NCBI RefSeq assembly: GCF_001584725.1
Contig: NZ_CP014606.1
Location: 1,054,001 to 1,118,000 of the forward strand
Direction: 5' to 3'
Length of the DNA stretch: 64,000 bases
From: an endosymbiont 'TC1' of Trimyema compressum
Lineage (GTDB): Bacteria > Bacillota > TC1
A program made the position numbers and the translations under genes. Below, piece after piece: positions 3,488 to 44,679 of the stretch. The notes under the pieces were generated by a model. That model did no database searches. It saw only the letters and a program-made list of their open reading frames with translations, and was not told the origin of the DNA. Every line of letters starts with the position of its first letter. Position 1 is the first letter of the stretch.

Positions 3488-4701
3488 AAGATGAATACTC
3501 TTTTATTCCCTTACTTCAAAATAAATTAGTATTTTTTTAATATCAAAGCAATTAATATTAGACATAGCCAAACTGAAATTAAACCTAATAACATAAATTG
3601 CCCATTACCTGTTGAAGGTAATTTTTCTTTTTTAAGTTGCCCTGCAAATGAATAAGAATCCCACTCATCACCATTGCTCACTATTTCCCCATTATATTCC
3701 CCAGAAACAAAGACTAGATTGGGAAAAATAACGCTTTATAGTTCTCCCTTAAAATATTTATTAGCTAAAAACTCTAAATTCTTAACCCTTCCCTCTATTA
3801 AAGGTTTTTCAATATTTTTAAAACCAGGTAAAACCGTATCATCAAAACGCACCTTTATAGCCTTAATAGTTTCTTCTTTTCCTAATCCTAATTCTAAAAA
3901 TTAAATATCATAGTTCTGTTCTGATGATAACCCTTGTTTCCATAAAAATAAAGGCTTTTCATCAGTTTCCAGATATAAATTATAGGTCTTTGGCTGGCGA
4001 TTTTTTTCATTGTATTATAAATAACCACTGGTAAAAGAGCCAGGGGAGGCTGGTATTTTAAAGATAACTCTATATTTTTTAATGAATTCGTCTTCCGCTA
4101 AAGACAGAACGGCTGAGCTAAAAATATGAGAAATGGAGGAATCAAGATTTTCTGCCACCTTAATATTCTTTCTTTTATTTGTTTCAACTACTAAATCATA
4201 CAGTCCAGCATTATTATATACACCTGTTGTAAAATTAGTTACCCTAGATGTCTCTAGCAAAGCATATTCAATAGCTTCTATATTGCTATAGGAACTGCCA
4301 TCAAACCCATAGTCAATATCTCCATCTAAACAATCCTGGATATCTTCTGTTAAGTTACCAATATTTAAATCAGTAAAATGCTGATCATATTCAAATCCAT
4401 TATTGCCTATTGATAATTGGTCATCCTTATCATCTAAAGAATTTTTAATCTGTATCTTTCCTTCGTCCTGTGATAAGAGAAACAACTCATAACCTTCAGG
4501 CTCAAAATATGTTCCTGTTTTCATTTTTTCTACTGAAATATATTCATGAGGCAATTTTTCTTGCCAAGTAAAAGAACCTAAAGGTACATTGCTAGCATTT
4601 CTGATTGTATTAAACTCATAAGAAAAAGGACCATTAGTCTCAATAATTTTGTCCCCTGTCTTTTGGACAAATGTTCCCAGCTCTATTTTTCTATTAGTAA
4701 T

Positions 4702-4731
4702 AATATGGTCTTTTTCAATATGGTCTTTTTC
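4702..4731. repeat. 15-bp tandem duplication inside the adhesin remnant
   Basis: Two identical adjacent 15-bp copies (4702-4716 and 4717-4731) give the in-frame duplicated peptide KDHIEKDHI. Unlike the other duplications, it keeps the frame. Confidence 0.85.
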
Positions 4732-4927
4732 AAAATCCATATTACAATTCCAATTTAAAGCATAAGGTTCCTCATTGGGTAAATAGCCTTTCGGTGCTTT
4801 TGTTTCGATTAACTGGTAATTGCCAAACTTCAACCCAGATGGTAAAGCAAGCTGGCCTTTTCCATTGCTGATAATAGTGGCTGCCGCTTCCTCAATTAAT
4901 CCTCCATTCTTAAATACAGATGCAATA

Positions 4928-5009
4928 GTGTTATCTTCATTATAAATTTTAAATTCAGCCCCTGCTAAGTGTTATCTTCATTATAAATTTTAAATTCAGC
5001 CCCTGCTAA
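4928..5009. repeat. 41-bp perfect tandem duplication breaking the adhesin frame
   Basis: Bases 4928-4968 and 4969-5009 are identical. The unit length is not a multiple of three, so the second copy shifts the Cna-B reading frame right after AGAEFKIYNEDNT. Confidence 0.92.
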
Positions 5010-6181
5010 AAGTTGGCTTTCAGCTAAATCTTTTTTAACAAACTTAGGAACTTTTTTCTTATTATTATAAACTATCTCATACACCTGATTATAATCTTCA
5101 ATATTTACTTCTTCTACAGATGAGTCACTGGATAATTCATATCCTGCTGGTGCTTCAAGCTCCTTGTAATAAATTATTGGATCTTTTTCAGGCAATAATT
5201 CTGCTACAATAATTTCACCTTTAGCATCGGTGCTAAAAACACCTAATGAATTATTTTCACAACCATGTTCTTTAGGATTTTTGTACCAAAACTGAAAACG
5301 TGCCCCTTCTAAAACTTCTCCTGTATCTTCATCTTGTTTTAATAACTTAAGCTCTGAATAGGCTGGTTCATAAGTAACACCAATCTTATTTGAGGCCTCA
5401 ACCATAGGGCTAGTTGATGTTACAGTATTCTGTTTACCATAGGTCGTTTCCAAAAAGACAACATCCCAAACCCGTGATATTGCTTTTTAAGGTATCCTCA
5501 TCATCAACGCTTAATTGAATATTAGGTTTTGTAAAGCTAATTAAATTATCTGTTTGAGAAACATAATCTAAAATATGATGATAGCCATAGTATACTGCTG
5601 CATCGCTATGATTCCCCACACTTTTTCTACAGCTTCCTATAGTTTGGCATCCATTTTTGATGTAGGCTCTAATTGCCATCTGAACTACATACCATTTTTG
5701 AAAATCACTTCTACAACCTTTTTCTTCCACCAATCTAAAGCCTTCCATGACCATAGTCCTCAAGGTCTTTCTAGTGTCCTTCATTGGCAAAAGCTTTTTC
5801 TAAAGCTTCTACACGAGCATTATAGCTCCCTGATTCAGGACCTAAAGCACCAGGGTTGACGCAATATGCCCAACCTTCATTACCCATCCTTATTGGAAAT
5901 AAGTGCAAACGACCTTTACTATCTTTTAAATATGTAAGCTCATCTGATAGCTTTGTCCATATAGGTTGTACTTCTCCATAATCAGCTCCTAATAACTTGA
6001 AAAAACCAAAAATCCCACCCATTATAAAAAGTATCAGTGTTAGAATAACACCGCCTTTTGACCATCCTCTTTTTACCTCCTTTTATTTTAGAGAAACAGA
6101 AAGACCTTCTAGTTCTCATTAAAAAGTCTTTCTAAAAAAGAGGTAGCATTCCTTAATATTAGCTTCATTTTTACAGCTAAT

Positions 6182-8432
6182 TTACAATTCTGCAAGTTTC
6201 TCTTTAATCATTTCAGCTGTAACAGGAAACTTTACAAATTCACTTCCAAGGCAATTGTTAATACCATTAACAATTGCTGGAGCAACAGGATTAACAGCAG
6301 CCTCACCAATACTTTTAGCCCCAAAAGGCCCCTATGGCTCTCCTTCTTCAATAAAAAGCACCTTCATATTTTCAGGCATATCCTTTGCTCTAGATATCTT
6401 ATATTTCTTAAAATTAGCATTAACAACCTTTCCTTTATCATTAAAAATAAATTCTTCTGCCAAATCCATTCCAAGACCCATTTAAATACCTCCGTGAATC
6501 TGCCCTTCTAGCAGAGTAGGATTGATTGCAGTTCCTACATCACAAGCTGCTACATAGTCTGTTAATGTTAATCACCTGTTTGTTTGTGACTCTTAAGTGC
6601 TACAAAATAAGCTCCATATGAACCAGCATTGGACTCTGAACTGTATCTTTCTGTAATTGAAAATTTCTTTTTCATTTTAAAACAACCATAGTAAATAACT
6701 TCCTTTCGAGAAGCTTTTTTACTGCCGTCAGCCGTTACAAAAAGCCATTTTCCATGATAATAGTATTTTGCGGAACCTCTAACAACATACTAGCAGTTTC
6801 TAAAAGTTCATTTTTTATATGCTCACATAATTTAATAGCACAATTACCACCAACCCAAGTATTTCTACTTGCTCCTGCAATAAAATCATAAGGGGTGCAA
6901 TAGGTATCTGTTGTAATTAGCTTAATTAAATCTCTATCAATGTCTACAATTTCCGAAACTATTTTTTTGAGAAGTGTATTAGTTCCACCACCATGATCAC
7001 ATAGTCTTGTGGAATAAATAGCAATACCATCTTCATTTAATGCTAATGTCATAACGCTTAAATCAGGTGCAAATGGCGCAATACCATTGCCATGTAAGGA
7101 TACTGCTACTCCATGTCCATAATAATATTCACTATCTTCTTTAGGTCTTTTCTTCAATCTATTCCAATCAATTGCTTCAGCACCCTTTATTAAACACTTA
7201 TTAATGGCTGCATTTCCTAAACTTAAATTAGATATAGGATCTATATCATATGGATCAACTATATTTTTTGCCCGAAGCTCACAAGAATCAACGCCTGTAA
7301 CTTTTGCTGCTTTATCTACTAGTAGCTCCAAAGAGGCAAATAATTGAGGAGAGCCAAAACCTCTCATTGCACCAGCTACAGGTAAGTTCTTATAGGTTGG
7401 ATAGCCATTAAACTCAATATTGGGCATTTTATAGAGTTTAAATAATTTACCACACATGGCACCTAAAATATTCAAAGTACAGCCACAGTAGGGACCACTA
7501 TTTAAATAAACATCTGTAGAAAAAGCAGTTAAAGTACCATCCTTTTTCACACCTAATTTGGAATAAAGAACTTAGCCATGTCTTGTAGTCGTTGAAACAA
7601 TAGAAGCCTCCCTATCTAAACGTATTTGTACAGGTCTCCTAGTTTTTTTTGATAATAAAGCAGCAATAGGCTCCAAAGTCATACCTTCTTTGCCACTAAA
7701 TGTACCACCAATAAACGTGTTGATTACTCTGATTTTATTAAAAGGCAAATTAAATATTTTACTCAACATAATTTGAGCCGAATAGACTCCTTGTTGTGGA
7801 CCTCTAGCAACCAATTAGTCATTAGTCCAATTCGCTACAGTCAGATAAGGCTCAATAGCACCATGATGCAAAATCGGTGTCTCAACTCTATGTTCTAAAA
7901 CAAAGTCGGCTTCTTCAAAACCTTTTGCAGTATCACCACATAATTGATGAAGTTCCTCAATTATATTACTCCCATCATAAATAGGGTAAGCTTTTTCTGA
8001 AGCAGCTTCTTCTACATCAAAGACTGCTGGTAACGCCTCATACTTTACCTTTATTAAAGCTAGCGCTTTTTTGGCAATTTCCCTAGTCTCAGCTGCTACT
8101 GCTGCTACTGCTGCTACTCGATCACTAACAAAGCGAACTCTCGGTTATCAAAGACTTTTTCTGTTGCTGGTAAATCATCATCTACAAACCGCATAATTCT
8201 ATTGTAAAATACATCAGGGCTATCTTTATAAGTTACGCGCGACACCATGAACCCCTGGGAGGTCTTCTGCTTCACTGATATCAATGCTTTTAATAATGCC
8301 ATGGGCAATTGGGCTAAATAAAATTTGCCCATAAAGCATACCTGGAACAACAATATCCTCAGTATATTTTTTCCTGCCAGTTACTTTAGCAAAGCCGTCT
8401 TCAACTCCTTCTCCAATACCAATAGATTTCAT
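6182..8432 (-). pseudogene. Xanthine-dehydrogenase-type molybdopterin subunit, decayed
   Basis: Remnant of a 750-codon molybdenum hydroxylase large subunit (xanthine dehydrogenase/XdhA type), which would oxidise purines such as hypoxanthine or xanthine. Recognisable parts in order: start MKSIGIGEGVEDGFAKVTGR, the GPQQGVYSAQ region, the GGTFSGKEG Moco motif, PVAGAMRGFGSPQ (AMRGFG loop), and near the end GPFGAKSIGEAAVNP, which holds the catalytic Glu of the family. The frame is broken by TAA at about 7815 and 7574, by TAA and TAG within the last 600 bases, and by frameshifts near 8235, 8115, 6735 and 6560. Several stops look like CAA to TAA changes. The small subunit gene overlaps it upstream; no FAD subunit is present. 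Clostridial relatives include selenium-dependent purine hydroxylases, but selenium use cannot be read from sequence. Confidence 0.88.
8092..8118. repeat. Three copies of a 9-bp unit in the xdh large-subunit remnant
   Basis: GCTGCTACT occurs three times head to tail, encoding VAAVAAVAA on the minus strand. The family normally has a single DRVAAVAAET-like stretch here, so this looks like a slippage expansion. Confidence 0.8.
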
Positions 8433-8913
8433 TATGAAAGCACCTCCATTTTTTGCCAGCTAAAATAACAGCATCAATAATTTTTTCATAACCTGTGCAA
8501 CACCTGTCCAACGGCATAGATTCCCATCTAAAGCCTGAATAACTTCTTTCCGACTTGGACATTTGTTTTTATTTAATAATTGCAATTGTTGTAATAACCA
8601 TTCCAGGTGTGCAATAACCGCATTGAATAGCTCCTGCTTCTAAAAAAGCTTTCTTGTACAGGGTGTAGCGAATCCCCACTAGAAAAAACTCAATAGTATA
8701 GATTGGCTTGCCAACCATATTTTTAGCCAATAAAACACATGAATTTTTCGCATCTTCATTCACCAGTACCTTACAAGCGCCACAATCATTTGTGCCACAT
8801 CCAAACTTACTGCCTGTTAAACCTAACTGTTCTCTTAATACTTGAAGCAATGTTGTATTGCTTTCAACCTCCACAGAAACTGGATTTTCGTTGACCATTA
8901 ATGAAACAATCAT
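8432..8913 (-). pseudogene. Xanthine-dehydrogenase-type [2Fe-2S] small subunit, decayed
   Basis: Remnant of the iron-sulfur subunit that passes electrons from the molybdenum site. The plant-type cluster motif GSKFGCGTNDCGACKVLV is intact near residues 35-52, followed by AIQCGYCTPGMV. The second cluster should end in NLCRCTGY. Here the frame shifts after TTIAIIK, and the CRCTGY region is scrambled by a small insertion (8500-8530). ATG at 8913 follows GAGGTAAAAAA. The last codon overlaps the start of the large subunit (TAATG), the usual translational coupling of this pair. Confidence 0.85.
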
Positions 8914-8944
8914 TTTTTTACCTCCTCAAAATATTAAATAAAAA

Positions 8945-8974
8945 AACGGAGCTGGAATCAAATCCATCTCCGTT
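8945..8974 (-). terminator. Intrinsic terminator downstream of ssnA
   Basis: AACGGAGATGGA pairs with TCCAGCTCCGTT (one mismatch) around a short loop and runs into seven Ts on the minus strand, between ssnA (ends 9013) and the xdh small subunit. Confidence 0.85.
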
Positions 8975-9012
8975 AATATCCCTGGAATAGTAGTCTATAT
9001 TCAATTACATTT

Positions 9013-10429
9013 CTATTTTTCTATTTCATTAAACCCCCATGGACGCTTCTTTAAGTAGTCCGTGCCTGCATTAATACTAAACTCATCAGCTACTCTTTGG
9101 CATTCCATAGCAATTTTATCTTCATTGTACACTTTTAGTTTACTATCTTCAAGAATAAAGTTACCATCAATTATTACAGTTTCAATATTTTTGTTCCCAG
9201 AACTATAAACTAAAGTGGAAACTGGATTATGTGTTGGGATTGCTTTCAAATCAAGCTGAGGATTAAAAACAAATAAATCGGCTTTCTTTCCAATTTCCAA
9301 AGAACCAATTTCTTTATCCATTTTAAGGCATTTAGTACCTTTAATGGTAGCCATCTCTAAAACTTTATCAGCCGTCATAATAGTAGGATTGCGATGGGTT
9401 ACTTTTTGTAATAATGCAGCGGCTTTTAATAGCTCAATCATATCATTACTATTATTACTAGCTGCCCCATCTAACCCTAAACCAACTGGTACATCTTTTC
9501 TATTTAATTCCGGAATTGGCGCGACACCAGAGGATAAATACATATTAATCATAGGATTATGTGATACGGTTGCACCATAAGCCTTAATATCGTCCATATC
9601 TTCCTTAGAAAGGTAAACACAGTGAACCCATAATCAAATTTATCATTTAACAGTTTTAAATCCTTTAGAAGTGGTAATTCCCACTTACCATGTTCAGTTA
9701 ATGTAGCTTATTTATCAAATGGGGTCTCAGAGACATGAATAGAAACCAAAATATCTAAATCCTCACTAACTTTTTGAGTCATTTTTAAAGAAGCATCAGA
9801 ATTTGACCAAAGTTCTGCAGGTACCATACCAATTGTAATTCTACCGCTCTCGCTACCATGGTAATCTCTATAAAGTCTACGAACAGAGGCTTTAATATCA
9901 TCTGGCTTTTCAATCATAGAAGGATGAACACCAAATTCAATGCCAGTATCCATATATCTTCTACCTAATACTCCTCTGATTTTCAAATCCTTCATTGCTG
10001 CTAAAACACCCTCATCTAAATCATGTATGCCCTTAGCATGAGGATACATATAGTCAAAAGTAAGTAGAGTTACACCACTATGAACACCTTCAGCTAATCC
10101 ATTTAAAGCAGCATAATAGCAATTTTCCTCAGTTAAAAATGGCGAACTAGGAAAAGTCATAAATTCTAACCAATCCTTAAGTACCATATCATCCCCAAGT
10201 CCTTTTAAGAGAACTTGGTAAAGGTGATTATGGGTATTAATAAGACCCGGAAAAACAATTTTACCTTTGCCATCAACAACTTTATTGCAGCGGGACCAAC
10301 GTTCTTCAAGAAGTTCACTTGGTCCAATATCTACAATTCTATCAGCTTCTATGTAGATTGCACCATCGTAAAGAATGTCCCTTTTTTATTCATTGTTACA
10401 ATACAAGTGTTTTTAATTAATATATTCAT
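9013..10429 (-). pseudogene. ssnA: SsnA-type amidohydrolase (aminohydrolase), decayed
   Basis: Remnant of a metal-dependent aminohydrolase of the SsnA/guanine deaminase/chlorohydrolase family, a member of the anaerobic purine-degradation clusters. The HxH metal motif is in FPGLINTHNHLYQ, the next histidine in SIHVSETPFDK, another in AHCVYLS-like sequence at about 9610, and the aspartate in GLGLDGAASNNSND. Breaks: a frameshift soon after the start (10390), a TAA following TPFDK (about 9708) and a one-base loss near 9620. The start is ATG 10429 behind GGTGGAG. Restoring the frame gives about 470 residues, close to the family length. It lies between terminators at 8945 and 10461, so it is a single-gene unit. 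Confidence 0.87.
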
Positions 10430-10460
10430 TTTTCTCCACCTTTACAATTGGATTAACAAG

Positions 10461-10495
10461 AAACGGGAAATGAATATATAATCCATTCCCCGTTT
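10461..10495 (-). terminator. Hairpin terminator after the ygeW remnant
   Basis: AAACGGGGAATGGA pairs imperfectly with TCATTTCCCGTTT around an A/T loop. On the minus strand it is followed by TTTCTTGTT, 34 bases after the ygeW stop. Confidence 0.65.
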
Positions 10496-10528
10496 TATAT
10501 CTTTGGATAAACATAAGCCAAATAATAA

Positions 10529-11531
10529 CTATCTTATTCCGCCTACGTTACCGAATGTTAAAGCCATTAAAGCTTTAATTGTATGTAATCTATTTTCTGC
10601 TTCGTCAAATAAAACGGATTGAGGTCCATCCATAAACTTCTGATGTTACTTCAATGTCTCTGTCTGCAGGCATACAGTGCATGTAAATAGCATTTTTCTT
10701 GCCTAGTTCCATTCTTCTTCGGTCAACAATCCAGCCTGGATTTTCGTCAATTAACTTTAAACCAGCTTCTTCGTCGTTACCAGTAAACATGATTGGACCC
10801 CAGCCTTTAGCATAAATAACGTCAGCATCTTTGCAAACCTCGTCCATATCGTGAACAATTTCAAATTTAGAACCGTGTGCTTCAGCGTTATCTTTAGCCA
10901 TTTGAATAGCTTCAGGCATTAAGTCGAATTTCTCCGGGTGAGTTAAAGTAACATCCATACCTGTACGAGTCATTAACTCAACTAGGTTATTAGCCATTGA
11001 TAATGGACGGATGTAGTTTGGCGCTGATGTTCAAGAAATAACGAATTTTTCTTTCTTAAGTCTCTGCCAAATTTTTCACGAATTGTGAATAAGTCAGCTA
11101 AAGCTTGAGTTGGGTGCCAGATATCACATTGCATGTTGTAAACAGGAATTTGGCTGTATTTTGCAAGAGCCGCCATCCAGTCATGTCCGCCAACTAATGT
11201 ATGACGTACGCCGGATACCATGTCACATTCTACCTAATACTTCAATAGTATCTTTAGGCGTTTCACCGTGGTCGATTTGAGTAGCTTTAGGAGTTAAGTA
11301 GTTACCGTGTCCTCCTAATTGTGTAATACCACACTCAAATGCGTTGCGAGTTCTTGTAGATTCTTCAAAGAATAACATAAATAGAGATTTAGCTCTACAA
11401 ATGTCATCATGTTGAATACCTAAAGTGTATTCTAGTTTCAACTTTTCAGTTGTAAGCATTAGCGTTTCAATTTCTTCATCAGACCAGTCTGCTGTTGATA
11501 ATAAATGTTTTCCTTTTAATAAAGATTTCAT
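10529..11531 (-). pseudogene. ygeW: YgeW-type carbamoyltransferase, decayed
   Basis: Remnant of a knotted-fold carbamoyltransferase (aspartate/ornithine transcarbamylase superfamily). The carbamoyl phosphate motif is EESTRTRNAFE (about residue 55) and the second substrate motif is [13 protein letters not shown], followed by MHCMPADRD near the end. These match YgeW, which acts with SsnA, YgeY and carbamate kinase in anaerobic purine breakdown. One-base losses at about 11222 and 10625 and a shift near 11040 break the frame. An in-frame TGA stands where relatives have Trp (the TWAYSPSY region of E. coli YgeW). Restored length is about 334 codons, shorter than E. coli YgeW (near 400). The intact ATG at 11531 follows GGAAGATTG. 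Confidence 0.87.
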
Positions 11532-11565
11532 TGTTGTTCAATCTTCCTTTCTAAATTAAATTATT

Positions 11566-12777
11566 CTATTTTCCACTAGCAGTTATTGCTAACATGGCGT
11601 AAACTTTAGCTGCGTCAACATACTCATCTACAGATATTTTTTCTTCTGTTGAATGGCATAACTCCTCTACAGATGGCCCAAATCCAACTGCTGGAATACC
11701 TTATCTTCCGCAAAGGGCTGTAAGCATTTGTACAAAAAGCCCAAACACTTAAATCGCATTTTTGATTGAATGTTGCTTCAAAAGCTTCAACTCCAGCTTG
11801 AATAAGTGGGTGTTCTTCTGGCAAAATCCATGAAGGGAAATAATCTTCCGCTTCAACATGATATCCTGTATATGTATCATAGTATTCCATATCGATAACT
11901 GCCTTTGAACCAGGAACCTTGTCAAGAAGCGGTTGTACTTCCGCAATTAATTGTTCTCTAGTTTCCCCACAAGATATTCTTCTATCAGCATAGATAACCG
12001 CCTCCCCTGGAATCGTATTCAGTGAAGGAGTTTTGCAATCCACTTTAGTCACTTCAATTGTGCCTTTTCCAAGAACAGAATCCTCGCCTAAATCTGTCAT
12101 TTTATCAATGCCTTCAATAATTGGCAATGCCTTAATTAATGCATTATCGCCTACATGTGCAGCACTTGCATGTGCAGCTTTACCAGGCACAGTAATTTTG
12201 ATTAAGGCTCTGCCTTTGTGACCTCTCATTATGTGCATTTCGCTGGCTTCAGCAACTACAACAAAATCAGGCTTAATGTCACTATTAACTTTCATCATTT
12301 CTTCTACACAAGATCCTTCAACATCTTCTTCTGAAAGAGATCCTGAAACCCACATAGTGAAATCTTTATCCAATCCTAAGTCTTTAAGCCCCTTTGCCTG
12401 CCCATGTAATAGCGGCTAATGGTCCTTTATTATCTACTGTACCAGACCCCAAATGTAGCCGTCAACTAAATCTGCACAGATAGAGGATTATATTTCCACT
12501 CAGCTAGGTCTCCCATTTCAGCTGTGTCGATATGAGCGTCATGCATAATAACTTTAGGCCTATTACCTACACGTCCTAATACGTTACCAACTGCATCGAC
12601 TCTAACCTCATCATAACCGTATTCTTTCATCTTCTTTGCTAAAAACTCTACAGCTTTCTTTTCATTGTAAGTAACACTTTCAATGCGAATGAACTCTTGC
12701 AGAAATGCTATCATCTCATCTTTATGTTCTTCTAAATATCCGCTGATTTTAGCCATTAAATCTTTGTAATCTGACAC
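11566..12777 (-). pseudogene. ygeY: YgeY-type M20 metallopeptidase/deacylase, decayed
   Basis: Remnant of an M20-family dinuclear zinc amidohydrolase of the YgeY type, which in purine clusters acts on an acyclic nitrogenous intermediate. Metal and catalytic residues are visible: HDAHIDTAEMGD (His, then catalytic Asp), GTVDNKGPLAA (bridging Asp), SGSLSEEDVEG (Glu-Glu) and VVAEASEMHI. The start is GTG 12777 behind AAAGGAGATGAG; length (about 404 codons) equals E. coli YgeY. The frame is lost between 12470 and 12370 (at least three small indels, one in a G-run) and near 11705. It ends 35 bases before ygeW, so the two formed one operon. Confidence 0.87.
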
Positions 12778-12881
12778 TATCTCATCTCCTTTACACATAC
12801 TTACCAATTTGATTATAGCATAACCATTTTCATTAATCCAGCCAAAAATGAAAATGTTTTCAAATTTTCCCATAGAGCTAA

Positions 12882-13307
12882 TCAAAAATGATTTTTGCTA
12901 TTATATACACATAAAAACCCTGCTATCATCAGCATGGGTCCTGCAGTCCACCCAATAATACTTGTCCCTAAAAGAATCATTTCAGCAAGCCCAGATAGGA
13001 GAAAAATAACCCCTGAAAATTTAAGCATTTTCGAGGAATTTCTTCGAGCAAAAACAAGTCCAACCAAGACAGAAAATGAAATAATAATACCATAAATTGT
13101 TCGCATCTGCGTCTCATTTGTCCACATGTCAAATTGCTCAATCGTCATCATATTTGTAAGCATATGTTGTAAGTTCGCATTCTTAACTACAAACATATTA
13201 TCAATTGTATTTACTACATTATTCAATCCGAAATATATGGTGCAGGTCATTATGATTATCATAATCAATCCTAATGTTGCCAGCACTCTTTCTTCTCTAA
13301 TTTTCAT
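12882..13307 (-). CDS. Small four-span membrane protein (DUF4064-like)
   Basis: An intact 141-residue integral membrane protein with spans at about 8-28, 71-87, 97-114 and 121-134. It starts MKIREERVLATLGLIMI, similar in layout to the two genes upstream (13322 and 13614), which share a charged start followed by a glycine-rich first span. I do not recognise a function; the pattern resembles DUF4064-type proteins. It is the last of three tandem relatives reading on the minus strand, 104 bases before ygeY. Confidence 0.65.
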   Translation of the reverse strand: MKIREERVLATLGLIMIIIMTCTIYFGLNNVVNTIDNMFVVKNANLQHMLTNMMTIEQFDMWTNETQMRTIYGIIISFSVLVGLVFARRNSSKMLKFSGVIFLLSGLAEMILLGTSIIGWTAGPMLMIAGFLCVYNSKNHF

Positions 13308-14097: not shown

Positions 14098-15438
14098 TTA
14101 TTTTACCCATTTTTCTTGGCTTGGATCTTGTGTTTTAGCATATAGATCAGCATCTGCTGGTCCACCTGCCATTACTTTTTCTACAAGCTCATTGTAAGCT
14201 TTATAGTCTAAGTATAATGGTACTTCTTTACATAAAGCATCGACTTCTTTAGAAAGTCCTGCTTTATTTGTGTTGTACTCATCACTTAATGCTCTTGCAA
14301 TTAAGTCAGCAATTTTAACCATATGCTCCTCTTTAAATCCTCTTGTTGTAGCAGCAGGTGTTCCTAAACGGATACCGCTTGTTACAAACGGGCTCTGCGT
14401 TTCAAATGGAATTGTATTTTTATTACAAGTAATAGAAATCTCATCTAAACGAGCTTCGGCTTCCTTACCTGTTAATCCTTTACCGGAAACGTCTGCAAGC
14501 ATCATATGGTTATCAGTTCCATTAGATACAATACGAACACCTGCTTTTTGTAATTCAGCTGCCAATACTGTAGCATTCTTTTTAACTTGGTCTTGGTAAT
14601 CTTTAAATGAAGGTTCTAAAGCTTCTTTTAATGCAACTGCTTTAGCCGCAATAACGTGCATTAATGGTCCGCCTTGTAAGCCAGGGAATACTGCTTTATC
14701 AATCATCTTAGCATATTCCGCTTTACAAAGAATCATACCACCACGAGGTCCTCTTAATGTTTTATGAGTAGTAGTTGTAACAAAATCACCGTAAGGAATT
14801 GGTGATGGGTGTAATCCAGCAGCCACTAGACCTGCAATGTGCGCCATATCTACAAATAAATATGCACCAACTTTGTCAGCAATTTCTCTAAAGCGTACAA
14901 AATCAATTTGTCTAGAGTAAGCACTTGCACCAGCAATAATCATTTTCGGTTTATGTTCAACTGCTAAACGCTCGATTTCATCATAGTCTAAAACTTCTTT
15001 ATCTTTAGTCACACCATAATGAATAAAGTTAAAGTATAAACCAGATAAGTTAACTGGGCTACCATGAGTTAAGTGTCCACCATGAGTTAAATCCATTCCT
15101 AATACAGTATCACCAGGTTTTAAAGCTGCTAAGAAAACAGCCTCATTAGCGTTAGCTCCTGAGTGAGGTTGAACGTTGGCATGATCTGCACCAAAAAGCT
15201 TTTTAGCTCTATCTCTTGCTGCATCCTCTGCAATATCAACATATTCACAACCACCATAGTAGCGTTTTCTTGGGTATCCTTCAGCATATTTATTAGTTAA
15301 AACAGAGCCTAATGCCTCTAATACTGCAGGGCTTACAAAGTTTTCAGATGCAATTAATTCAATTTTATCTGTCTGTCTAGCTCTTTCCTTATCTAATACG
15401 CTGGATATTTCAGGGTCATAGTTTTTTAAACGTCTCAT
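14098..15438 (-). CDS. glyA: Serine hydroxymethyltransferase
   Basis: An intact 446-residue PLP enzyme that interconverts serine and glycine with tetrahydrofolate one-carbon units. Visible signatures are [10 protein letters not shown] (28-37), [13 protein letters not shown] (51-63), [12 protein letters not shown] (about 200) and the PLP lysine in [14 protein letters not shown] (about 230). It is some 30 residues longer than E. coli GlyA, with a carboxy-terminal extension ending QEKWVK. It has its own sigma-A promoter at 15479-15507 and its own terminator, and is undamaged although the grd operon directly upstream is wrecked. Next to glycine reductase it would feed serine into, or drain, the glycine pool. 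ATG 15438 follows AAAGGCGG. Confidence 0.97.
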
Positions 15439-15606: not shown

Positions 15607-15629
15607 AATTTATCCGAATGCTAAATATA

Positions 15630-16790
15630 TCATTTTTCTTTTAAAACAGCTCTGGCTTGGTCTAAATCTTCATCAGCAACCATTACAATTGGTCCAGTAC
15701 ATCCCATTCCGCTAGAAGCATAAATATTTTCCTTCCATAATGCATGAACTGCATCTTCTAAATCTAAAATTTCAATGCCAGGAATATCAGAAGCAGTTGG
15801 TTTTGAAGGTGGTTCAACAATTGGTTCTTCCTCTTTGCTTTCCTCAACTTTTGATTCAAGACCTTGAAGTATTTTATCCAATCCAGCAATTTTTGCTTTA
15901 GCAAACTCTTCATCAACAGTAGCAGTTAGATTACCTTCAGCACATAAAGCAGCATAACCAATTGCTCCAGCTGCTACATTGGCGCCACTGGCTCTTGATA
16001 GAATACAGATAATTCGATCACAAAACCTTCTCCGACGCCTGGTCCATAGCCGTATCCTAACGCTTCATAGTCTCCACCACTGGAAAAAGCACTAAAAATT
16101 TTCATCAATACATTTCCTGTTAAACTATCCACAGTCATTACAATAGGCACGCCCAATAATAAATCATTGCCTCTCATTACAAAGCCCCCATCGCTTCTTG
16201 CTGATTCAGCAAAATCCAGTGGATAACCATTTTCTTCTAATTGCTTTAAGACCCTTTCGACTTGTCTTACTCCTTCAATATTTAAAATACCTACTGGAGG
16301 ATTTTTAATACCACAAGTTTTTGCTACTCCAATTCCAGCAATTATATTTTTAACCATTGCTGCTACACGGTTAATGGATGATGTACCAGTAGTATTGGCC
16401 ACAAACATCTTTTTACCTTTACCAGGAGTAATAACACGACCTACTGTAGACACGCCGATAGGAAAATTATAGTGCATTGTTACTGCACCATCTAAGGTTC
16501 CTTCTTCAAGCATACGATCCATAGTCTCATGAGCTTCTTCCTCTGAACGAACACGAACAACTTCTAGCTCAGTATTCACATTATTGCCAATGACAAATAT
16601 TTCAATGTGACTGTTTCTCCTGCTAGCAAGTTCCGCACCTCTGACAATTTCACTCTCACCATGTTCGCTGCCTAAAGTAGTAATACCTATACGAACCTTT
16701 TTACCGAGATGGGCTGTTTCTAGGGCACTGGCGACCTATTCTAAGGTTTCTTTCAAATAGGAGACTTTACTGCATTTTCCAACAAAGCCA
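15630..16790 (-). pseudogene. grdD: Glycine reductase protein C, smaller subunit GrdD, decayed
   Basis: Remnant of GrdD, which with GrdC forms the protein C complex releasing acetyl phosphate from the selenoprotein-bound carboxymethyl group (PlsX-like fold). Conserved stretches include VRIGITTLGSEHGE (16700), AVTMHYNFPIGVSTVGRV, VMRGNDLL, VDSLTGNV and GYGYGPGVGEG. The carboxy end carries an acidic-proline linker and a GIEILDLEDAVHALW tail. Lesions: no start codon remains in frame behind AAAGGAGGTG, TAG interrupts LE-VASALE at about 16737 (CAG to TAG is the simplest reading), and a frameshift falls near 15985. It begins 7 bases after grdC. Confidence 0.88.
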
Positions 16791-16796: not shown

Positions 16797-18318
16797 TTAT
16801 ATATTATCAGCTAACTTGCGAATTGCATCAGCAACCATGCTGCGCACTTCCTCTTTATCAATAACCTTTCCTTTGTATCTTTAATTTCACCAGGATTACT
16901 TTCAATTAAGAAAGAAACGCCATCAAATAAATTGGTAAGACGACCAAGGAAAAGACTACCCTTACCAATGATCATTACTTTTTCCATCCGCAAATCCAAT
17001 ATAGGGAACACCATATGGAATATGTCCTTGTGTCGGTGCATAACCAACTAGGCCTTTTTCCATAACTACTTTTTCTATTTCAGAACGCTCAAAATCCCCT
17101 CTTTTAACGCCTAGTGCCGCAATCATTTTAAAGTTCGCTAATGGCACATCTCAAGCACCAGCAGGCACTGTAATCTCAGGATTTTGCATTTCTGGTGAAA
17201 ATTTATCAATGTCCTTTAAAGAAATACCTACTTTATCTAACGGGTCAATTACAATTGCTGTCATTACTGCCTGTGGAGCAGATCCTGCTCCTATAGTGTG
17301 GCGACCTACAACATCCGTTCTAATAATTGGGCTAGCACCATCATTTTCTGAGATATGAATAGCAAATGTACTTAAGCAATCCTCTAAAACAGGCATATTT
17401 TTTTCAATATGTGATTTTGAGTTCATACCTAATTTAGCTGTTGAGCCACCTGCAACAACAACAACATTTTTATAAACTCCCCGCTTTAACTAAAGCAGCA
17501 GCTTCAACTAGAGCATGAGCTGGTCCAGCACAGAAACTTCTTGTGTCGTTACCTGTAGCATTATTACAGCCACAAATTTCACCAATAGCTTTAGCAATAT
17601 TACCGCCACCTCTTTGGTTCATATCACCGCAAGCTTCTTCAGAACACTCAATAATATAATCAACTTGCTCAGGTCTTAAGTCAGTCTTATTAAATAACTG
17701 TAATAAATTAGCTGCACAAGATGCTTTACTAGCAAGGTTTTGAAACATTACATGACTTGTTAAAACAGCATCAAACTCATGAGCTTTTTTAACACAACCA
17801 ACTAAACGACCAGCATAATAAATGCCTTCAGCATCTTCTTCTTTAACTAAACGTTCGATTTCTTCAAATTTTAGACCTTCGCCATCTAATTTTTCAAGAT
17901 GTTTTTCCATTACATTAAATTCTTCTTTTTTCGAAAGCTTAGCTTTTGTTGACGCTTGGAAACCATCCTCTAGGAGAACTAAACCAAATACATCGACAGC
18001 CTTCATTAAACCTATTAACTCATTTTCATAGTAAATAGCACCAAAACGGCCTTCTCTTGAAGAAGTTGATAACGAATTACCATACCAAGGTTGTTTATGA
18101 CATCTTAATTGTTATGGTGTTCCATTTCCTATATAAACCTGATTTGGCACATATTTAACAAATTCGTCGTAGTTTCTCAAACACTTCTTCAAATTTTTAA
18201 CATGCTCAGAATCAGGATGTTTTAGCAACTCTGTTGTTTGTGTTGTACCCTGATGAATTGTCATAGTTGGTGCATTAAACAAACTATATGATGCACTTTT
18301 GATTACTGGAAAACTCAT
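16797..18318 (-). pseudogene. grdC: Glycine reductase protein C, larger subunit GrdC, decayed
   Basis: Remnant of GrdC, the thiolase/FabH-like subunit of protein C. Segments in order: NAPTMTIHQGTTQTTELLK, YVPNQVYIGNGTP, LEDGFQASTKAKLSKK, SHVMFQNLASKASCAANLL, CSEEACGDMNQRGGGNIAKA, NATGNDTRSFCAGPAHAL, VVVVAGGSTAKLGMN and MIIGKGSLFLGRLTNLFDG. Restored length is about 507 codons, as in functional GrdC. Lesions: TAA after IGNGTP (18113), an extra G in a G-run (17475), TGA after VPAGA where relatives have Gly or Asn (17150), and shifts near 16985 and 16875. The TGA is not a plausible selenocysteine since this position is not catalytic. Confidence 0.9.
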
Positions 18319-18347
18319 TATAAGATTCCTCCTTTATTCTTAAAAAT

Positions 18348-18395: not shown

Positions 18396-19448
18396 TTAAT
18401 CTTCAAATACTGTTTGTTCTGTCACTTCAGTTTGAAGTGCTTTTAGTGCTTCTCTGACTAACTTTCTTCTCAATTCCTTTTCTTCTTTTTCACCTAAAGC
18501 TGGATTGCCTAATGGGTAAGGAATAGCTACAGTAGAAACAATTCTATTAGCTCCAACTGTCATTGAAATTGGTACTACTGGAATAACTCTATCTAAGCCA
18601 TCGTTTGCATAAACTGGATCAAAACCACCATGAGCAGTTTCACCATTTGAAGGATTTAAATCATCAATACCTTCAATGCTATATTTACCATATTTAGATG
18701 CACTAGACGCCTCAATACGATCTGGATTCCCTTTCGGAACTGGTCCCCCAGATGAAACGATTGCTATTTTTGCTTTTGTAATATCTTTAATTGGCGGTGC
18801 TGGATCAACTCTATCAAAAACAGGTATTTCATACTCTGTTTCAAAAACTTCACCTTTTAATTTCTTCACCAATAAATCTACAGCTCTTTTAGCACCTTTT
18901 TTCACAGAATAAATTTTTACGCAAACCTCGTGGTAATTAACCTTCTTCTGCTGGAGTGCCAAGAGTTTCACCTACTACTAGTTTCAAAACAATAGCAGAC
19001 ATAATTTTAAGTGCATCTTTCATTGTTGCAGCTGAGTTACCAGTTGCTACAATTAGTGCATCTTTCTTATACATATCAGCACCAGGGTTTTCTTCATACA
19101 TACCACTGATTACCGGAATGTTTAAGGTCTCTGATACTGCTTTGCAAACAGCACCACAAGCTACGCCATAACGACCAGCGTTAAAGGCAGGGCCTGCAAT
19201 AAAAATATCTGGATTTTCTTCTTTAATCATTCCCAATATTTTTCTGTAGCTTCTTCAATATTTTCATTGAAGTAAGTATCACCACAGATAATGGTAGATG
19301 TAATGGTTGCTTTATCTCCAAAAGCAGCTTGAAGTCCCATTCCTGGTCCTTTTACACCTGCTATTTTTTCCGGAGCATAATCTGTTTTATCTTCACCACC
19401 AATACCACCATAAAACTGGTTAATGTAATGGACTATTTTCACTCCCAA
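18396..19448 (-). pseudogene. grdB: Glycine reductase substrate subunit GrdB, decayed and lacking its selenocysteine region
   Basis: Remnant of GrdB, the glycine-binding subunit of protein B whose selenocysteine takes up the activated substrate. Present are KIVHYINQFYGGIGGEDK, VKGPGMGLQAAFGDKA, FIAGPAFNAGRYGVACGA, SGMYEENPGADMYKKD, GGPVPKGNPDRIEASSASKY, ETAHGGFDPVYAND, and finally MTVGANRIVSTVAIPYPLGN to the end. Functional GrdB has about 80 more residues between VYAN-x-x-DRV and VPIS-x-TVGANR, including the Sec motif STUGTCTRCG. Here the two sides are joined directly and in frame (about 18575). A homopolymer loss at 19236, a TAA at about 18935 and a shift near 18915 add to this. The gene cannot make an active GrdB. 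Confidence 0.9.
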
Positions 19449-19477: not shown

Positions 19478-19918
19478 CTATTTTCTAAATGATTTTACTG
19501 CTTCGCATAATGTATCCACATCAAGTACCATTTCCATCATACCTGCTTGCTCATCATATACTTCGGCATCAACTCCATCTTTTAATTCAAAAATGTGATA
19601 TACTTCAAGTCCCAACTGAACTCCTGCTAATGGACCTGCATAAGAGGGGTCACCTTCTGTTACTGTTTCAGCAGCTAGAGCAGCAGCTTCTGCCTCTCCT
19701 GCACCTAATACAACAACTAAGTCTTTACCATACTCTTCAGCTAAATCTTTGATTCTAGCTTGATTTTCTAAGTCCATAGCACCTGCGCTTGTTCAAACAA
19801 AGCATTCTGTTGTAGCTAGTACTACGTCAGCGCCGGCTGTTTTAACAATTTCAGCAATAGCATCTCCTGGAACACCATCACGGTCTCCAAGGATAGCCAC
19901 TTTTTTACCTTTTAACAC
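19478..19918 (-). CDS. grdA: Glycine reductase selenoprotein A (Sec at residue 42)
   Basis: Intact 146-residue GrdA, the small selenoprotein that carries the carboxymethyl group from protein B to protein C and is reduced by thioredoxin. It starts at GTG 19918 behind AGGAGGAAAAGG. The frame contains TGA at 19793-19795 in the motif [15 protein letters not shown], which is the known selenocysteine site of GrdA, so translation continues to 19478. [15 protein letters not shown] near residues 8-22 and [15 protein letters not shown] are also typical. It is the only grd gene here without another lesion. GrdE lies 46 bases upstream and GrdB 29 bases downstream. Decoding needs SelA-D functions encoded elsewhere. 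Confidence 0.94.
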
Positions 19919-19963
19919 GGCCTTTTCCTCCTTTGATTTCCTCTTCTATAATATTTATTCTGG

Positions 19964-21260
19964 TTAGTATGTTCTTGCAGAAAGATATCCGTAGCCTACT
20001 TCACTTGTTGCTCCAGTGATTACCTGGATTTCAGCAGTAATACTACCATCTTTACTTAGACTTCCTTGGAAGCCACCTGCAATTACTTCTGGCTACTTCT
20101 GGATATCCAATTACAGTATCCATTGCAGGCAAGTGAACAATCTCGTTGGCATTTCCACCAGTCACAATTGCATCGCCTACAGGTGTAGAGTCAGCAAGTG
20201 ATTGAGAACCACCATCTTGACCAGCATATTCATCAGTAATTAATACTGTCTTAACACCTTTTTTAGTGATTTTATTACAGTTCATTACTAAATCAGCATC
20301 TGGATTACCAAAGCCTTCTTCAGAAATAATTACTGCATCAGCTCCTAAAAATTCAACTAATTTAGCCGTCATATTTGAAGAACGTTCTTTATCCATAAGT
20401 GTAAAATTTAAATTTGTAATGATACATCCTAAGAAATTATAGTCCTTACCATGACGCTTATACAGTTCTTCAATTATAGGATGATTCATATGCACATAGC
20501 TAGGATTTTTATCACAAGCAGAAACACAGTTACCACTAACGATAGCGCCATCAAACACTTCTGTTGGATATAGGAAAGTAGGCATAATCTTCTTTCCATC
20601 TACACCATACACATAAGTATCGTGTAATAATCCTTGAGTTTGTAGCATATACACATAAAGTACCTTTGGTAAATCTGGGTACATTTGCGCTTGCTCCAAA
20701 ATCGGTTTTGTCTCATAGGTTTTAATTTCATCAGGCTTGACGTCTTTACCTGCTTTACCTACATAAATGTTTGCTCTGAAACCAGCTAGTCGAACAATCT
20801 CTTCACGCTCGTGTTGTTTTACGCCATCAATAGGCTCTATTTTTAACACAATGTTGTTTGTTTTAGAAAATGGTGTATATTCAGCTCCTGGGCCACTCAT
20901 ATCGACAATACCTTCTTGGAATCCAACGATGCGACCGGTAGTCACAATGGCTGCTCCCTTAAGAACGTGAGTCGTTCCATTCCCTACTTGTTCAACGCCA
21001 CTCATAAATCCTGGGAAAATGCCTCCGTCGCCTTCCACTTTTATGCGGGGCTCCATAACATCTTTAACAGGAATAATGCGTATCTTTTCGCCTGGTTTTG
21101 CTAGGTAAACTTCCACAGAAGCTACTCTCTCATCTTCTTTAGCTACTTGGATTAACTCTTCCTCATTAATAAAAAGAATGCCATCCTTCACTTCTGTAGA
21201 CTTTCCAAACTGAACATCCTTAATCATAATATTTCCTACATTCAGTTGCAAAACCTTCAC
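19964..21260 (-). pseudogene. grdE: Glycine reductase proprotein GrdE with frameshifted carboxy end
   Basis: GrdE is the proprotein of protein B that is cleaved at a cysteine to give the alpha and beta subunits and a carbonyl group for glycine binding. About 400 residues read cleanly from MKVLQLNVGNIMIKDVQFG, including GAAIVTTGRIVGFQEGIVDM, the cleavage region GAIVSGNCVSACDKNPS (about 242) and ITDEYAGQDGGSQSLAD. Near 20095 a 10-bp near-tandem duplication shifts the frame. The normal end, EVIAGGFQGSLSKDGS through GYGYLSARTY, continues in another frame to the stop at 19964. ATG 21260 follows AAAGGAGGTGAAG. If the duplication is an artefact this gene is fully functional. Confidence 0.9.
20085..20106. 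repeat. 10-bp near-tandem duplication at the end of grdE
   Basis: The motif TACTTCTGG is repeated after a 10-base step (20087 and 20097). Removing one step restores the conserved reading GYPEVIAGGFQGS. Confidence 0.75.
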
Positions 21261-21365
21261 CTCCTTTAGATTTAATATATACTCAGCTTTTTCAAGTATT
21301 GTAAACCTTTACATTTAGTAATATACTAAACGGTACAGACCGTTCTTCAGACCCTCTAGTCCAGT

Positions 21366-21756
21366 CTAAAGCAATCCCAAATCAATGGTTTGAAAATCAT
21401 AATCAATTTTCTCCAATTCAGCCTCAGACCAATGGCGAATAGGCTTCTTGAATTTTGCTGCTGTACCAATGGCGAATAGGCTTCTTGAATTTTGCTGCTG
21501 TACCAATGGCATTCTCTATTAGTTTTAGAGAATTAAAGTTAACTGGCCCTGTACTTATATCTAAAATAATTGACTTGTACTCTGTTTCATGGGGCTTAAC
21601 GCTCCCTGTCAAAGGATGACTGATTAAAGCATGTCCTTCATGAACAAAATCTCGAACTCTGTTTAAAACACTATCGAAATCTCCTTCTACAAAGTAGGCT
21701 GGATATGCCTCTTTAACTAATTTATTATTCGTTACAATAAAAACTTTTTTAATCAT
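21366..21756 (-). pseudogene. grdX: GrdX family protein, carboxy end altered by tandem duplication
   Basis: GrdX is the small protein of unknown function that opens many grd operons. It starts MIKKVFIVTNNKLVKEAYP at ATG 21756 and contains the family segment HPLTGSVKPHETEYKSIILD. A perfect 37-bp tandem duplication (21431-21504) shifts the frame: the present reading ends early at 21424 with YSSKIQEAYSPLV. With one copy removed it continues SEAELEKIDYDFQ and so on to a stop at 21366, the likely ancestral end. The protein may still fold, as only the last 20 or so residues change. It is first in the grd order, with grdE about 105 bases downstream. Confidence 0.85.
21431..21504. repeat. 37-bp perfect tandem duplication in grdX
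   Basis: Bases 21431-21467 and 21468-21504 are identical. The unit is not a multiple of three and creates the premature end of GrdX. Confidence 0.94.
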
Positions 21757-21880
21757 AATCAAACCCTTGTGAATTATTTTACAACCTAATTCAAAAATAA
21801 AACTCCCTTTCCATAGGCAAAAATGACTTGAAAGAAAGTTCATTGTTAATAATAGAATCGTAATTTTTTCTTCAATTGCA

Positions 21881-22636: not shown

Positions 22637-24580
22637 TTAGCCCACTATTTTAATTTTACTTTTTTCAACAATATATGTTGCAGGCATTAATTGATTTAGC
22701 ACCTCAATTGATTCATCTCTAATAAAAGCTTCTATAATCTCTTTTCCAAGAGGATCTAAATCTTCAGTTAAAAACGGTCTTAACTCTTCTTTAAAGAAAT
22801 TAGTCAAGATGCTGGCACCTTTTTCAAAACCATCTTCGCCAATATACTTATACTTCTGCTCTTCAACATTTAACAATCTTGTTGGAATTTCTTTACTGTC
22901 AAGTTTCACACGCTTCATACTATATCCTAATACAGGATGACCCTGATCATGAAGCTAACTTCTTTTGAAAGGTGCTTGACCTCTTCGAGATAAATATTCT
23001 CTTGAAGGCCATTCAGCTTTAAAGCCAACTTTATAGCTACCAATATGTTGATTTGGAATTAAAACATAACGGGTTTCTGGTGTGCTTACCATTTGATGAA
23101 GCAAAATATTAGCCTAATCTAAACGTTTGCCTTTGGCAAATGGCCAACCAATAGGAACCGACCCCTCGCTACCCATAGAAGTAGTTTCAATAATACTAGG
23201 GTTTCCGTAACCTCTTGGTGCAACTAAACGCCAGAGCCATGCAATAGCTGGTGGTAAAACATGAAATAGTCCAACAACTCCATAGCCTACTCTATCTTTA
23301 GTTGTAGGTGGTGTACGCAAACCAAAACTTCTTAAGTCAACCTCCACTATATCATCTTTAGTCGCTCCAAAATATTCTCTTGGAACTACTACTCGAGGAT
23401 TGGAACATGGTTTGCCAGGCTCATACATAATATGCTCCCAAATTAATGCAGTAGACTTTGGAGCTGCATCAATATTCAGAAAAATCATGGGGCCTTTTGG
23501 ATGAATTGTTAAGCGCTCTAAATCAGGCTCAGAGCCATACTCTTTTATATGGTCCACTCTTTAAAAACCAACCGGATTCAGCATCAGTAACTACCATTTT
23601 TTTGCCATTTTGAATAGCAGGTGGTGTAAGTGCCATATCATCCAGTTACAGGTTTTAATTTTGAGTTGTCATTTAAATCAATATATATACGATCATGATT
23701 TATAAGATCTTCTCCTAAAAGAACGCTACCATCAATCTCCCTAGTTATTTGCTCAAGCATTTCACCTTTTACCACCAATTTCACTTTTACCACCACCAGA
23801 TGCACCTTCATGCATAATAGTATAGGTATTTTCATAAGGTGTTGTAACTTGAACCGTAGAAGCATGAAGAGTATTCCACCCTTCCTTCTCAGCAAAATCC
23901 AAAAGAATACTGTAAACACCTTTTTTGGCACTAGGACCTGGGTAAAGATTATAAGAAAACACTTCATGCAAGCCCTCTTCTCTATTGTGGACAACAACCT
24001 GCTTACCATGGCAATAAGTATGTCTAAATGGTGGAGCGACATACATAATCCCTTTAGGTTCAAAATTATCTTCTAATTCATCTGCTGGAATAAAATCTTG
24101 GATGTCGGCTAATGCCCCAGCAAAAAATGCAGCATTAGCAAGTACTAGAGGAATTGAAGGATAACCAAATTTCTTCCCACCAGATATAAATGGCATTGCA
24201 ATCACACTATCTAATGTTTTAAACCACTCAATAGTATCTTGCCTTAATTGATCAAAAGACTCACCAAAACGATGTTCAAAAGTTTCTTTATCGGTAGGCC
24301 TGTCCATCTGCAATCACCATACAATTAGGATCTCTCCGTCTCATGTAACGATCTGTATAATTAATAGCCAATCCATTTTTACACTGCGCAACTGTACATT
24401 CCACTACTTTGCCAATACCTGGAATTGTATAGTAAACTTCAAAAAAATCATTGGATTTACAATCATTTCCCAAAGCTAAATTAAAAAGCTCTTCTCTGCT
24501 TTTAGGGAAAATAATCTCTGTTGACTCAAATATAGATTGAGTTTCTTCAGGTAATGTTATTTTTTCATTATATCTTTCAT
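22637..24580 (-). pseudogene. DUF4914 family P-loop protein, decayed
   Basis: Remnant of a protein of about 640 residues that I match to the DUF4914 family, whose role is not established. It carries a kinase-like phosphate-binding loop, HEGASGGGKSE, in the middle, reminiscent of phosphoenolpyruvate carboxykinase P-loops. Other clear parts: ETQSIFESTEIIFPKSREEL, FMYVAPPFRHTY-like sequence near 24030, DLRSFGLRTPPTTKDRVGYG and MKRVKLDSKEIPTRLL near the end. Lesions: an A-run loss near the start (24555), a frame change at 24300, an 18-bp near-tandem duplication directly after the P-loop (23759-23794), and stops or shifts near 23640, 23560, 23113 and 22960. It is among the most damaged genes in the window. 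Confidence 0.72.
23759..23794. repeat. Near-tandem 18-bp duplication at the DUF4914 P-loop
   Basis: 23759-23776 and 23778-23794 are nearly identical copies of the P-loop sequence (GGGKSE, then a second GGK-E). The insertion shifts the frame from GGGKSE into a stop, while the expected EMLEQITREIDGS resumes in another frame. Confidence 0.75.
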
Positions 24581-24617
24581 TTAAACTATCTCCTTCTCCT
24601 CAGCCTTAATATAAAGG

Positions 24618-39066: not shown

Positions 39067-39085
39067 TTATTTTAAAATATTAATA

Positions 39086-41023: not shown

Positions 41024-43057
41024 CTATAGCACCTCTATTCTAACTGCGAAAGATTTTAATTGGGGAATTTTTGCTAATGGATCAAGTTCTTTATCATTAG
41101 TCAATGCATTAACTAAACTTTCTTTAAAGTGGAAAGGCATAAAGACAATTCCTCTACCAATTCTATTCGTAATACGGACTTCTGTTTCCAAGCTTCCTCT
41201 TTTATTAGCTACTCGTACTTTTCTAAAATCCCAAAGCCCCATTTCCTTTGCATCATGTTCATTAATTTCAATAAAACTCTTGCTGGCTTCCCTTTCAAGA
41301 TTCCATACTCGACGAGTCATTGTACCTGTATGGTAATGATGATGAATTCGTCCAGTTGTCATTAAGAAAGGATATTCCTCTGTCGGCAACTCAGATGGCG
41401 AAATATACGGGTTAATGGTTAATAAGCCTTTGCCTCTAGAAAATGTATCTTTATGCATATAAGGTGTTCCTGGATGATCAATTGAAGGACAGGGCCATTG
41501 AATCCCAATATCTTCAATTCTATCATAAGTAATACCCCTATATATTGTAGTCATTTCATTTATTTCTTCCATAATATCTTTAGGGTGCTCATAAGCTGCA
41601 TCCACATTAAACAAGCTGATAACATCTCTTAGAATTTCCCAATCTGCTTTTGCATTACCAACTGGGTCAATTACTTTTCTGACCCGTTGAACTCTTCTTT
41701 CAGTATTAGCAAATGTACCATCTTTTTCAACAAAACTTGCTCCTGGTAAGACAACATCAGCGTACTCAGCAGTCTCAGTCATAAAAATATCCTGAACAAC
41801 TAAGAAGTCAGCTGCTTCAAGAGCCTCAACAACATGAGCCTGGTTTGGGTCAGACATTACAGGATTCTCACCAATAACATAAAGACCTTTCATTTCACCA
41901 TTAAGTACCTGCCCAAAAATCTCAGTTAATTTATAGCCGATTTTACATGAGGTCTGTTGTCCCCACTTCTGTTTAAATTTATCATGAACTTTCTTATCAG
42001 ATGCTTTTTGATAACCTGGAAATTCAGCTGGAACAGCCCCCATATCACAGGAACCCTGAACATTATTCTGTCCACGTAGTGGGTTAACACCAGCCCCTTC
42101 TTTTCCTACATTACCTGTAATCATAGCTAAATTAGCTAATGCAGCAACAGTTGATGAGCCAGTAATATGCTGCGTTACACCCATGGTATAAGCAATAGAG
42201 CCATTCTTAGCTGTTGCATATCCTCTGGCCATTTCACGAATTATTGCTTCAGATAATCCAGTAACTTCAACAGCTAACTGAAGATCTTCTTCATCAATTG
42301 AATCCATTAGCTCTTCATAACCTTCAGTTCTTTCAAGAATAAACTTTTCATCAGCCAATCCCTCAGAAAATATCACATAAATCATAGCATTAATTAAGGC
42401 TAAGTTAGTACCAGGTTGAATTAGTGCGTAAACATCAGCATAATCTGCTAGTTGAATTCTCCTTGGATCAATTACATAAAGCTTGCCGCCTTTTAGTTTA
42501 GCTTCAATTATACGAGTAGCAACTAAAGGGTGCTGTTCTGTTGTATTAGATCCTATGACAATAGTGCAATCTGCTTTACTAAAATCATCAATGCTATTGG
42601 TCATGGCTCCACTGCCAAATACAGTTGCTAAACTAGCAACAGTGGGACTGTGTCAAAGACGTGCACAATGATCAATAGTAGCCGTTCGCAATGCTGCTCT
42701 ACCAAGTTTTGAAGTTAAAAAGTTTTCTTCATTAGTACAGCGAGCACTTGCTAAAATACCAATATGTTCAGTGTTATCACCTTCTGCCATGATTTTACTA
42801 AAACCTTCTTTAATTTTATCATATGCTTCTTCATAAGTAGCTTCCCTAAAAACACCATTTTCTTTTATTAATGGAGACTTTAGTCTATCTTTATTATGAA
42901 CAAAGTTAAATCCATGCCACCCTTTTGCACAAATTTTACCTCTATTCACTATATGGTTTCTAGGTGGTTTAGCACTGACAACTTTACCATTTTCTTCTGT
43001 CAGAATTAAGCCACAACCACAACCACAATATCCACAGGTTGTTAATGTTTCACTCAT
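41024..43057 (-). CDS. fdhA: Formate dehydrogenase catalytic subunit, selenocysteine at residue 135
   Basis: A 677-residue molybdenum/tungsten bis-MGD enzyme of the compact FdhH type. The [4Fe-4S] domain is CGYCGCGCGLIL with KICAKGWHG near residues 8-55. At 42653-42655 an in-frame TGA stands in DHCARL-U-HSPTVASL, exactly where FdhH has selenocysteine followed by His. The same frame continues to 41024 without break through IGSNTTEQHP, NPLRGQNNVQGSCDMG, VLPGASFVEKDGTFANTERR and MTTGRIHHHYHTGTMTRR. A perfect hairpin sits where a bacterial SECIS is expected. It oxidises formate (or reduces CO2). The electron-transfer partner is encoded immediately downstream. Confidence 0.96.
42624..42655 (-). 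promoter_or_regulatory. UGA codon and probable bacterial SECIS hairpin of fdhA
   Basis: After the TGA (42655-42653) and 12 further bases, GTTGCTA-GTT-TAGCAAC forms a perfect 7-bp hairpin (42640-42624) with a G/U-containing loop about 20 bases beyond the UGA. Distance and shape match SelB-binding SECIS elements of bacterial formate dehydrogenases. Confidence 0.75.
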
Positions 43058-43079
43058 TGTTTTCCTCCGTTTTGAACAA

Positions 43080-44039: not shown

Positions 44040-44044
44040 ATTTT

Positions 44045-44601
44045 TTATTTTTCTTTCTGATCATTTTCTTTGACTTTTGTATATCTATTAAATGTCTTAT
44101 TTCCAATTTTAACAGTTCTTGCTGCATGTCCAACAGTTGTTGAATTTTCCTCTGTATCCTTTATTACAATAGCGCCCGCTCCAATTTTACTACCTTTAGA
44201 AATAACGATAGGCCCTAAAACTTTAGCGCCAGCCCCAACAATTACACCATCTTCTATAGTCGGATGTCTTTTTCCTACATCTTTACCAGTTCCTCCTAAT
44301 GTTACACCTTGATAAATAGTAACATTATTACCAATAATTGTAGTTTCACCAATTACAACACCCATACCATGGTCAATAAAAAAATTTTTCCCAATTGTTT
44401 CCCCTGGATGTATTTCAATTCCAGTAAAAACCGTCCCAACTGAGATAGTAATCTTGGAATAAAACGCAACCCATTTCTATACATAAAATTTGACGGTCTA
44501 AAGAACCACATTATATGAACTGATGGATATAATAAAATCATTTCAATTACCGATCTTGCAGCTGGATCCATTTCCCTAATGTGATCAAAGTAAGCCTTCA
44601 T
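44045..44601 (-). pseudogene. cysE: Serine O-acetyltransferase (EpsC/CysE type), single frameshift
   Basis: Left-handed beta-helix acetyltransferase that makes O-acetylserine for cysteine synthesis. The amino part (REMDPAARSVIEMILLYPSV, about 10-29, then [14 protein letters not shown]) and the hexapeptide part ([49 protein letters not shown]) are in different frames. One missing base at about 44447 joins GRFL to [18 protein letters not shown], restoring a 185-residue protein. The rest is sound, so this may be a sequencing error or a very young pseudogene. It stands 5 bases before the glycosyltransferase gene. ATG 44601 follows AGGAGAGAG. Confidence 0.85.
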
Positions 44602-44679
44602 CTTCTCTCTCCTTTTTAAACTGCTCCTTCCAATAATTATATAACACTATATTTATAAGAGCAATCATATAAAAGGCGA

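Follow-up and report, generated by a model that had tools for sequence, protein, structure and literature searches.

The glycine reductase operon of the anaerobic endosymbiont TC1 of Trimyema compressum is very probably in decay as a grdX-E-A-B-C-D cluster whose grdB gene has lost its selenocysteine (Sec) segment by deletion, within an eroding catabolic island and in a genome that retains the use of selenium. The window that we analysed spans 64,000 nucleotides (positions 1,054,001-1,118,000 of NZ_CP014606.1) and lies within a 1.62-Mb genome assembled in two contigs and 96.9% complete. Coordinates are those of the window unless another stretch of the genome (L138, L139) is named.

A deletion at the selenocysteine codon of grdB

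The remnant of grdB, the gene of glycine reductase selenoprotein B, occupies positions 18399..19439 of the minus strand, where it is spread over more than one frame. It was recognised with PF07355 and TIGR01917/TIGR01918 and by a frameshift-aware alignment with L034, the nearest relative and one of four from the same family (L033-L036), with 79% identity (278/354) over the remaining residues. Measured against the full-length GrdB of these relatives, 84 codons (252 nt) are missing in frame. The lost segment, VDILKEMEK...TSTUGTCTRCG...VVHMCT, includes the UGA (Sec) codon 346 and 81 nt beyond it, and the flanks, which meet at about 18578-18590, now read DRVIPV-VPISMTVGANR. Alignment with the four relatives and 76 further homologues places the join, where GTTATTCCAGTA meets GTACCAATTTC, at 18575..18592 (minus strand). 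In this set of 80 full-length homologues from public genomes, TGA stands at the Sec position in every case (80/80), Cys in none and the same gap in none (0/80 each), while the 84 missing columns include 41 of the 158 near-invariant columns of GrdB. No copy of the segment exists elsewhere in the 1.62-Mb assembly, and a second grdB and a second grdE-type gene are likewise absent from it.

A preliminary description of the locus had proposed an in-frame loss of the Sec region between conserved flanks, in a segment where functional homologues carry Sec, and the alignments bear it out on both points. Its figure of about 80 missing residues was of the right order, the actual number being 84. Its claim that the deletion had removed exactly the active-site region was overstated: if 84 codons were deleted in frame at a random place in a 430-codon grdB, the Sec codon would be covered with a probability of 0.24, so the coincidence of deletion and active site does not call for a particular explanation.

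The deletion has no long repeats at its flanks. The short GTA-containing ends to which the same description drew attention fit, since the join is compatible with a deletion at a repeat of three to four bases (GTA/GTAG), and slippage or illegitimate recombination at such very short repeats was probably the mechanism. In a relative such as L034, the right-hand end contains CCAGTAGTAC and CTGTAGT follows 18 nt further; given this end, an origin of the join in two steps would also be compatible.

Three further lesions, the number first reported, were placed on the minus strand by alignment and sequence context. They are a frameshift (-1) near codon 76 at 19241..19246 (~19244), an in-frame TAA replacing a Tyr codon at 18937..18939 and a frameshift (-2, equivalent to +1) near codon 191 at 18896..18904 (~18900). 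An open frame of 191 codons is left. The RNA downstream of the UGA in the relatives' grdB did not give a distinctive fold (z = -1.33), and we make no claim of a SECIS element.

By descent, the remnant belongs to the GrdB lineage (PF07355), as indicated by homology along its length and by its place in a grd operon; its three fragments match PF07355 with 161, 147 and 90 bits. As a functional GrdB it fails: the best of the three fragments, which lie in different frames, reaches 252.3 bits with TIGR01917 (cut-off 602.2), and the UGA of the UGTCTRCG motif went with the deleted segment. The relatives' intact GrdB proteins score 685-699 bits with the glycine reductase model, above the same cut-off, and fall below the cut-offs for the sarcosine enzyme GrdF (681-684 against 800) and the betaine enzyme GrdH (549-556 against 775). 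The lost enzyme was therefore most likely a glycine reductase.

Lesions in the other grd genes

On the same strand, grdX, grdE, grdC and grdD carry about ten further lesions. The grdX pseudogene (21332..21774, match to NF038093) shows a tandem duplication and a frameshift at ~21430-21500 and a TAG at 21368. Alignment reveals a +1 frameshift at 20093 in the grdE pseudogene (19967..21278), which has retained the motif NCVSACDKNP, in what we take to be the putative pyruvoyl-Cys region. The pseudogene of grdC (component C beta; 16800..18333, alignment and fragment match to NF040746) is interrupted by TAA at 18114, a +1 shift at 17484, TGA at 17153 and a loss of frame near 16991, probably with one more near 16873. 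That of grdD (component C alpha; 15624..16780, fragment match to NF040747) has frameshifts at ~16764 and 16024 and a TAG at 16738. The operon thus holds roughly 12-16 disabling lesions, the grdB deletion among them, and most would be sufficient alone.

The only intact grd gene is grdA (19481..19921, minus strand; NF040748, PF04723), with an open frame and a UGA for Sec in ECFVUTSAG. Its product passes the NF040748 model (reduct_selen_A) with 229.9 bits against a cut-off of 130 and has the Sec in a CxxU motif. Its conserved columns resemble those of the relatives in a constraint test of low power. As a sole escapee it is not significant, because a gene of 0.44 kb would stay clean in about 30% of cases at 2.6 lesions/kb. 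It is very improbable that selection has kept grdA as a free-standing selenoprotein in another role after the loss of glycine reductase, and an intact grdA alone is no ground for annotating the strain as a glycine reducer. A search for D-proline reductase gave no match here, nor did it in its control genomes.

That glycine reductase is dead is well supported. Besides the 252-nt deletion, which took the Sec codon and the region downstream of it, grdB, grdC, grdD, grdE and grdX were disrupted by separate frameshift and stop mutations and by a tandem duplication, and the reduction of glycine to acetyl phosphate would have been lost with them.

Erosion of the surrounding catabolic island

The operon lies in an island (~6-24.6 kb) with 2.59 lesions/kb. 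In a sample of 147 genes from the window and from other stretches of the genome, each aligned to a relative, the density was 0.29/kb for the window outside the island and 0.30/kb for 107 genes sampled elsewhere, some of the lesions in the latter being probably alignment noise at low identity. On one side of the operon, purine-degradation genes (6042..12925, minus strand) each carry at least two frameshifts or stops; judged by a reading of their frames, they are presumably xdh-, ssnA-, ygeW- and ygeY-like. On the other side, a DUF4914 gene (22640..24599, minus strand; alignment and Pfam), presumably PEP-carboxykinase-like, is a pseudogene with at least five lesions; it shows four frameshifts, at least one stop and a short tandem duplication in a P-loop-like region. 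As an internal control, glyA (14098..15438, minus strand), which adjoins the broken operon, is intact and free of lesions at 78% identity; plsY, inside the island, is lesion-free as well. At 3529-6082, the gene of a surface protein that has CnaB-like repeats and an LPSTG sorting signal is also broken.

Outside the island, a TrmL-like gene (52693-53402) and a CysE-like gene (43904-44722) have one frameshift each, so decay is not limited to the catabolic island. A purL-like gene (L139:5020-7518) is divided among several frames, which hints at a broken de novo synthesis of purines.

The loss of grd would then belong to a wider erosion of adjoining catabolic genes in a small genome, probably through loss of selection, and this erosion may have followed a change in lifestyle.

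Selenium use is retained

The machinery for Sec is complete: selA and selB are adjacent, intact open frames, the tRNA-Sec is intact, scoring 65.5 where the cut-off is 47, and SelD (L138:6035-7072) is complete and itself a UGA-containing selenoprotein (AAGUAAKVGPG). Within the window, the gene of formate dehydrogenase alpha (FdhF, 41027..43060, minus strand) is intact and encodes Sec in CARLUHSPTV, with 801 bits against the TIGR01591 cut-off of 666. Beside it, a large open frame at 39083-41023 resembles fused iron-sulfur and flavin reductase modules. With the machinery and further Sec proteins in working order at the sequence level, the organism is not giving up selenium. One gene after another, an energy-conserving Sec enzyme complex is being taken apart in a genome that still decodes Sec, presumably to supply formate dehydrogenase and SelD.

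Age of the decay and alternative explanations

Few conserved positions are altered, with 5 of 125 in grdB and three to six in each of grdE, grdC and grdD, numbers close to those of the relatives. A test for relaxed constraint at conserved columns gave a weak signal, a slight excess of changes. These few substitutions point to a recent decay. Nonsense and frameshift lesions are somewhat numerous beside so few missense changes, and this imbalance, together with the fact that several lesions are single-base indels, is what could be expected if the assembly had collapsed the Sec segment and base-calling errors had produced the frameshifts. Such an artefact is nevertheless very unlikely. The lesions follow genes rather than position, leaving glyA and plsY clean inside an island whose lesion density is nine times that of the genome sample, and 118 of the 147 genes are intact where uniform error predicts 90, with a maximum of 111 in 20,000 simulations, which disfavours uniform sequencing error. 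The kinds of lesion are also mixed: many are stop substitutions or tandem duplications, the small indels fall mostly outside long homopolymers, and the 252-nt deletion has no long flanking repeat able to cause a collapse.

If the decay is real, its order may be asked. The preliminary description held that the grdB deletion came first and alone switched off glycine reductase, the other lesions following without selection. The loss of the enzyme stands, with all grd genes but grdA broken; the priority of one event is not supported. The deletion is in frame, its size and place would abolish catalysis and its flanks are well conserved, features that suit an early event, but about a dozen other lesions of the operon compete with it, most of them sufficient alone, a random deletion of this length within the frame has a 24% chance of covering the Sec codon, in-frame deletions bear no sign of earliness and a single genome cannot date lesions. 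We regard a deletion-led inactivation as unlikely. Far less plausible is that the shortened gene still yields a functional GrdB-like scaffold or regulator without Sec, perhaps akin to the NCBIfam family GrdB_like_no_Se. An in-frame deletion that leaves 191 open codons and the existence of a Sec-less GrdB-related family (NF041545) make the idea conceivable; against it, lesions at 19244, 18939 and 18900 interrupt the frame, the matches to NF041545 are weak (41.5 and 29.6 bits, cut-off 175) and lie on two separate frames, and grdE, grdC and grdD, which encode the partner proteins, are pseudogenes as well. The choice of a pseudogene over a non-catalytic protein in the preliminary description was therefore sound, the more so with grdX also disrupted. 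That description took no account of the decay far outside grd, in the purine cluster and the DUF4914 gene, nor of the intact state of grdA and of the entire Sec machinery. Related bacteria show a link to selenium for the grd operon and for the purine cluster near it, and their joint decay could on that ground have been a consequence of lost Sec decoding; with selA, selB, tRNA-Sec and selD intact and UGA codons in selD and fdhF, this cause is refuted and has practically no chance of being right.

Comparison with known GrdB families and selenoprotein losses

The decay of an operon under lost selection remains the preferred reading. The grdB event is an ordinary case of selenoprotein loss, observed while still under way, and has not produced a novel type of protein. 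The remnant resembles GrdB (TIGR01917/PF07355) in its homology over all remaining residues and in its neighbours grdX, grdE, grdA, grdC and grdD. It differs in lacking the Sec segment and in its two frameshifts and in-frame stop, with which a full protein is impossible. GrdB_like_no_Se (NF041545) likewise spans an N-terminal part of GrdB without Sec; however, it is a family of 171 residues, and the grdB match to it lies far under the cut-off and spans a frameshift.

In the literature on grd pseudogenes, we found nothing closer than surveys of selenoprotein loss. Zhang et al. 2006 counted six GrdB and four GrdA losses in sister species and described the Sec trait as maintained by FdhA or SelD, with the remaining selenoproteins being gained and lost (PMC1794560). 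The persistence of FdhF and of a Sec-containing SelD in TC1 follows the same pattern. Those losses were inferred from presence and absence, the form in which such events are usually visible, whereas here the remnant and its lesions can still be read and the locus offers a snapshot of selenoprotein loss.
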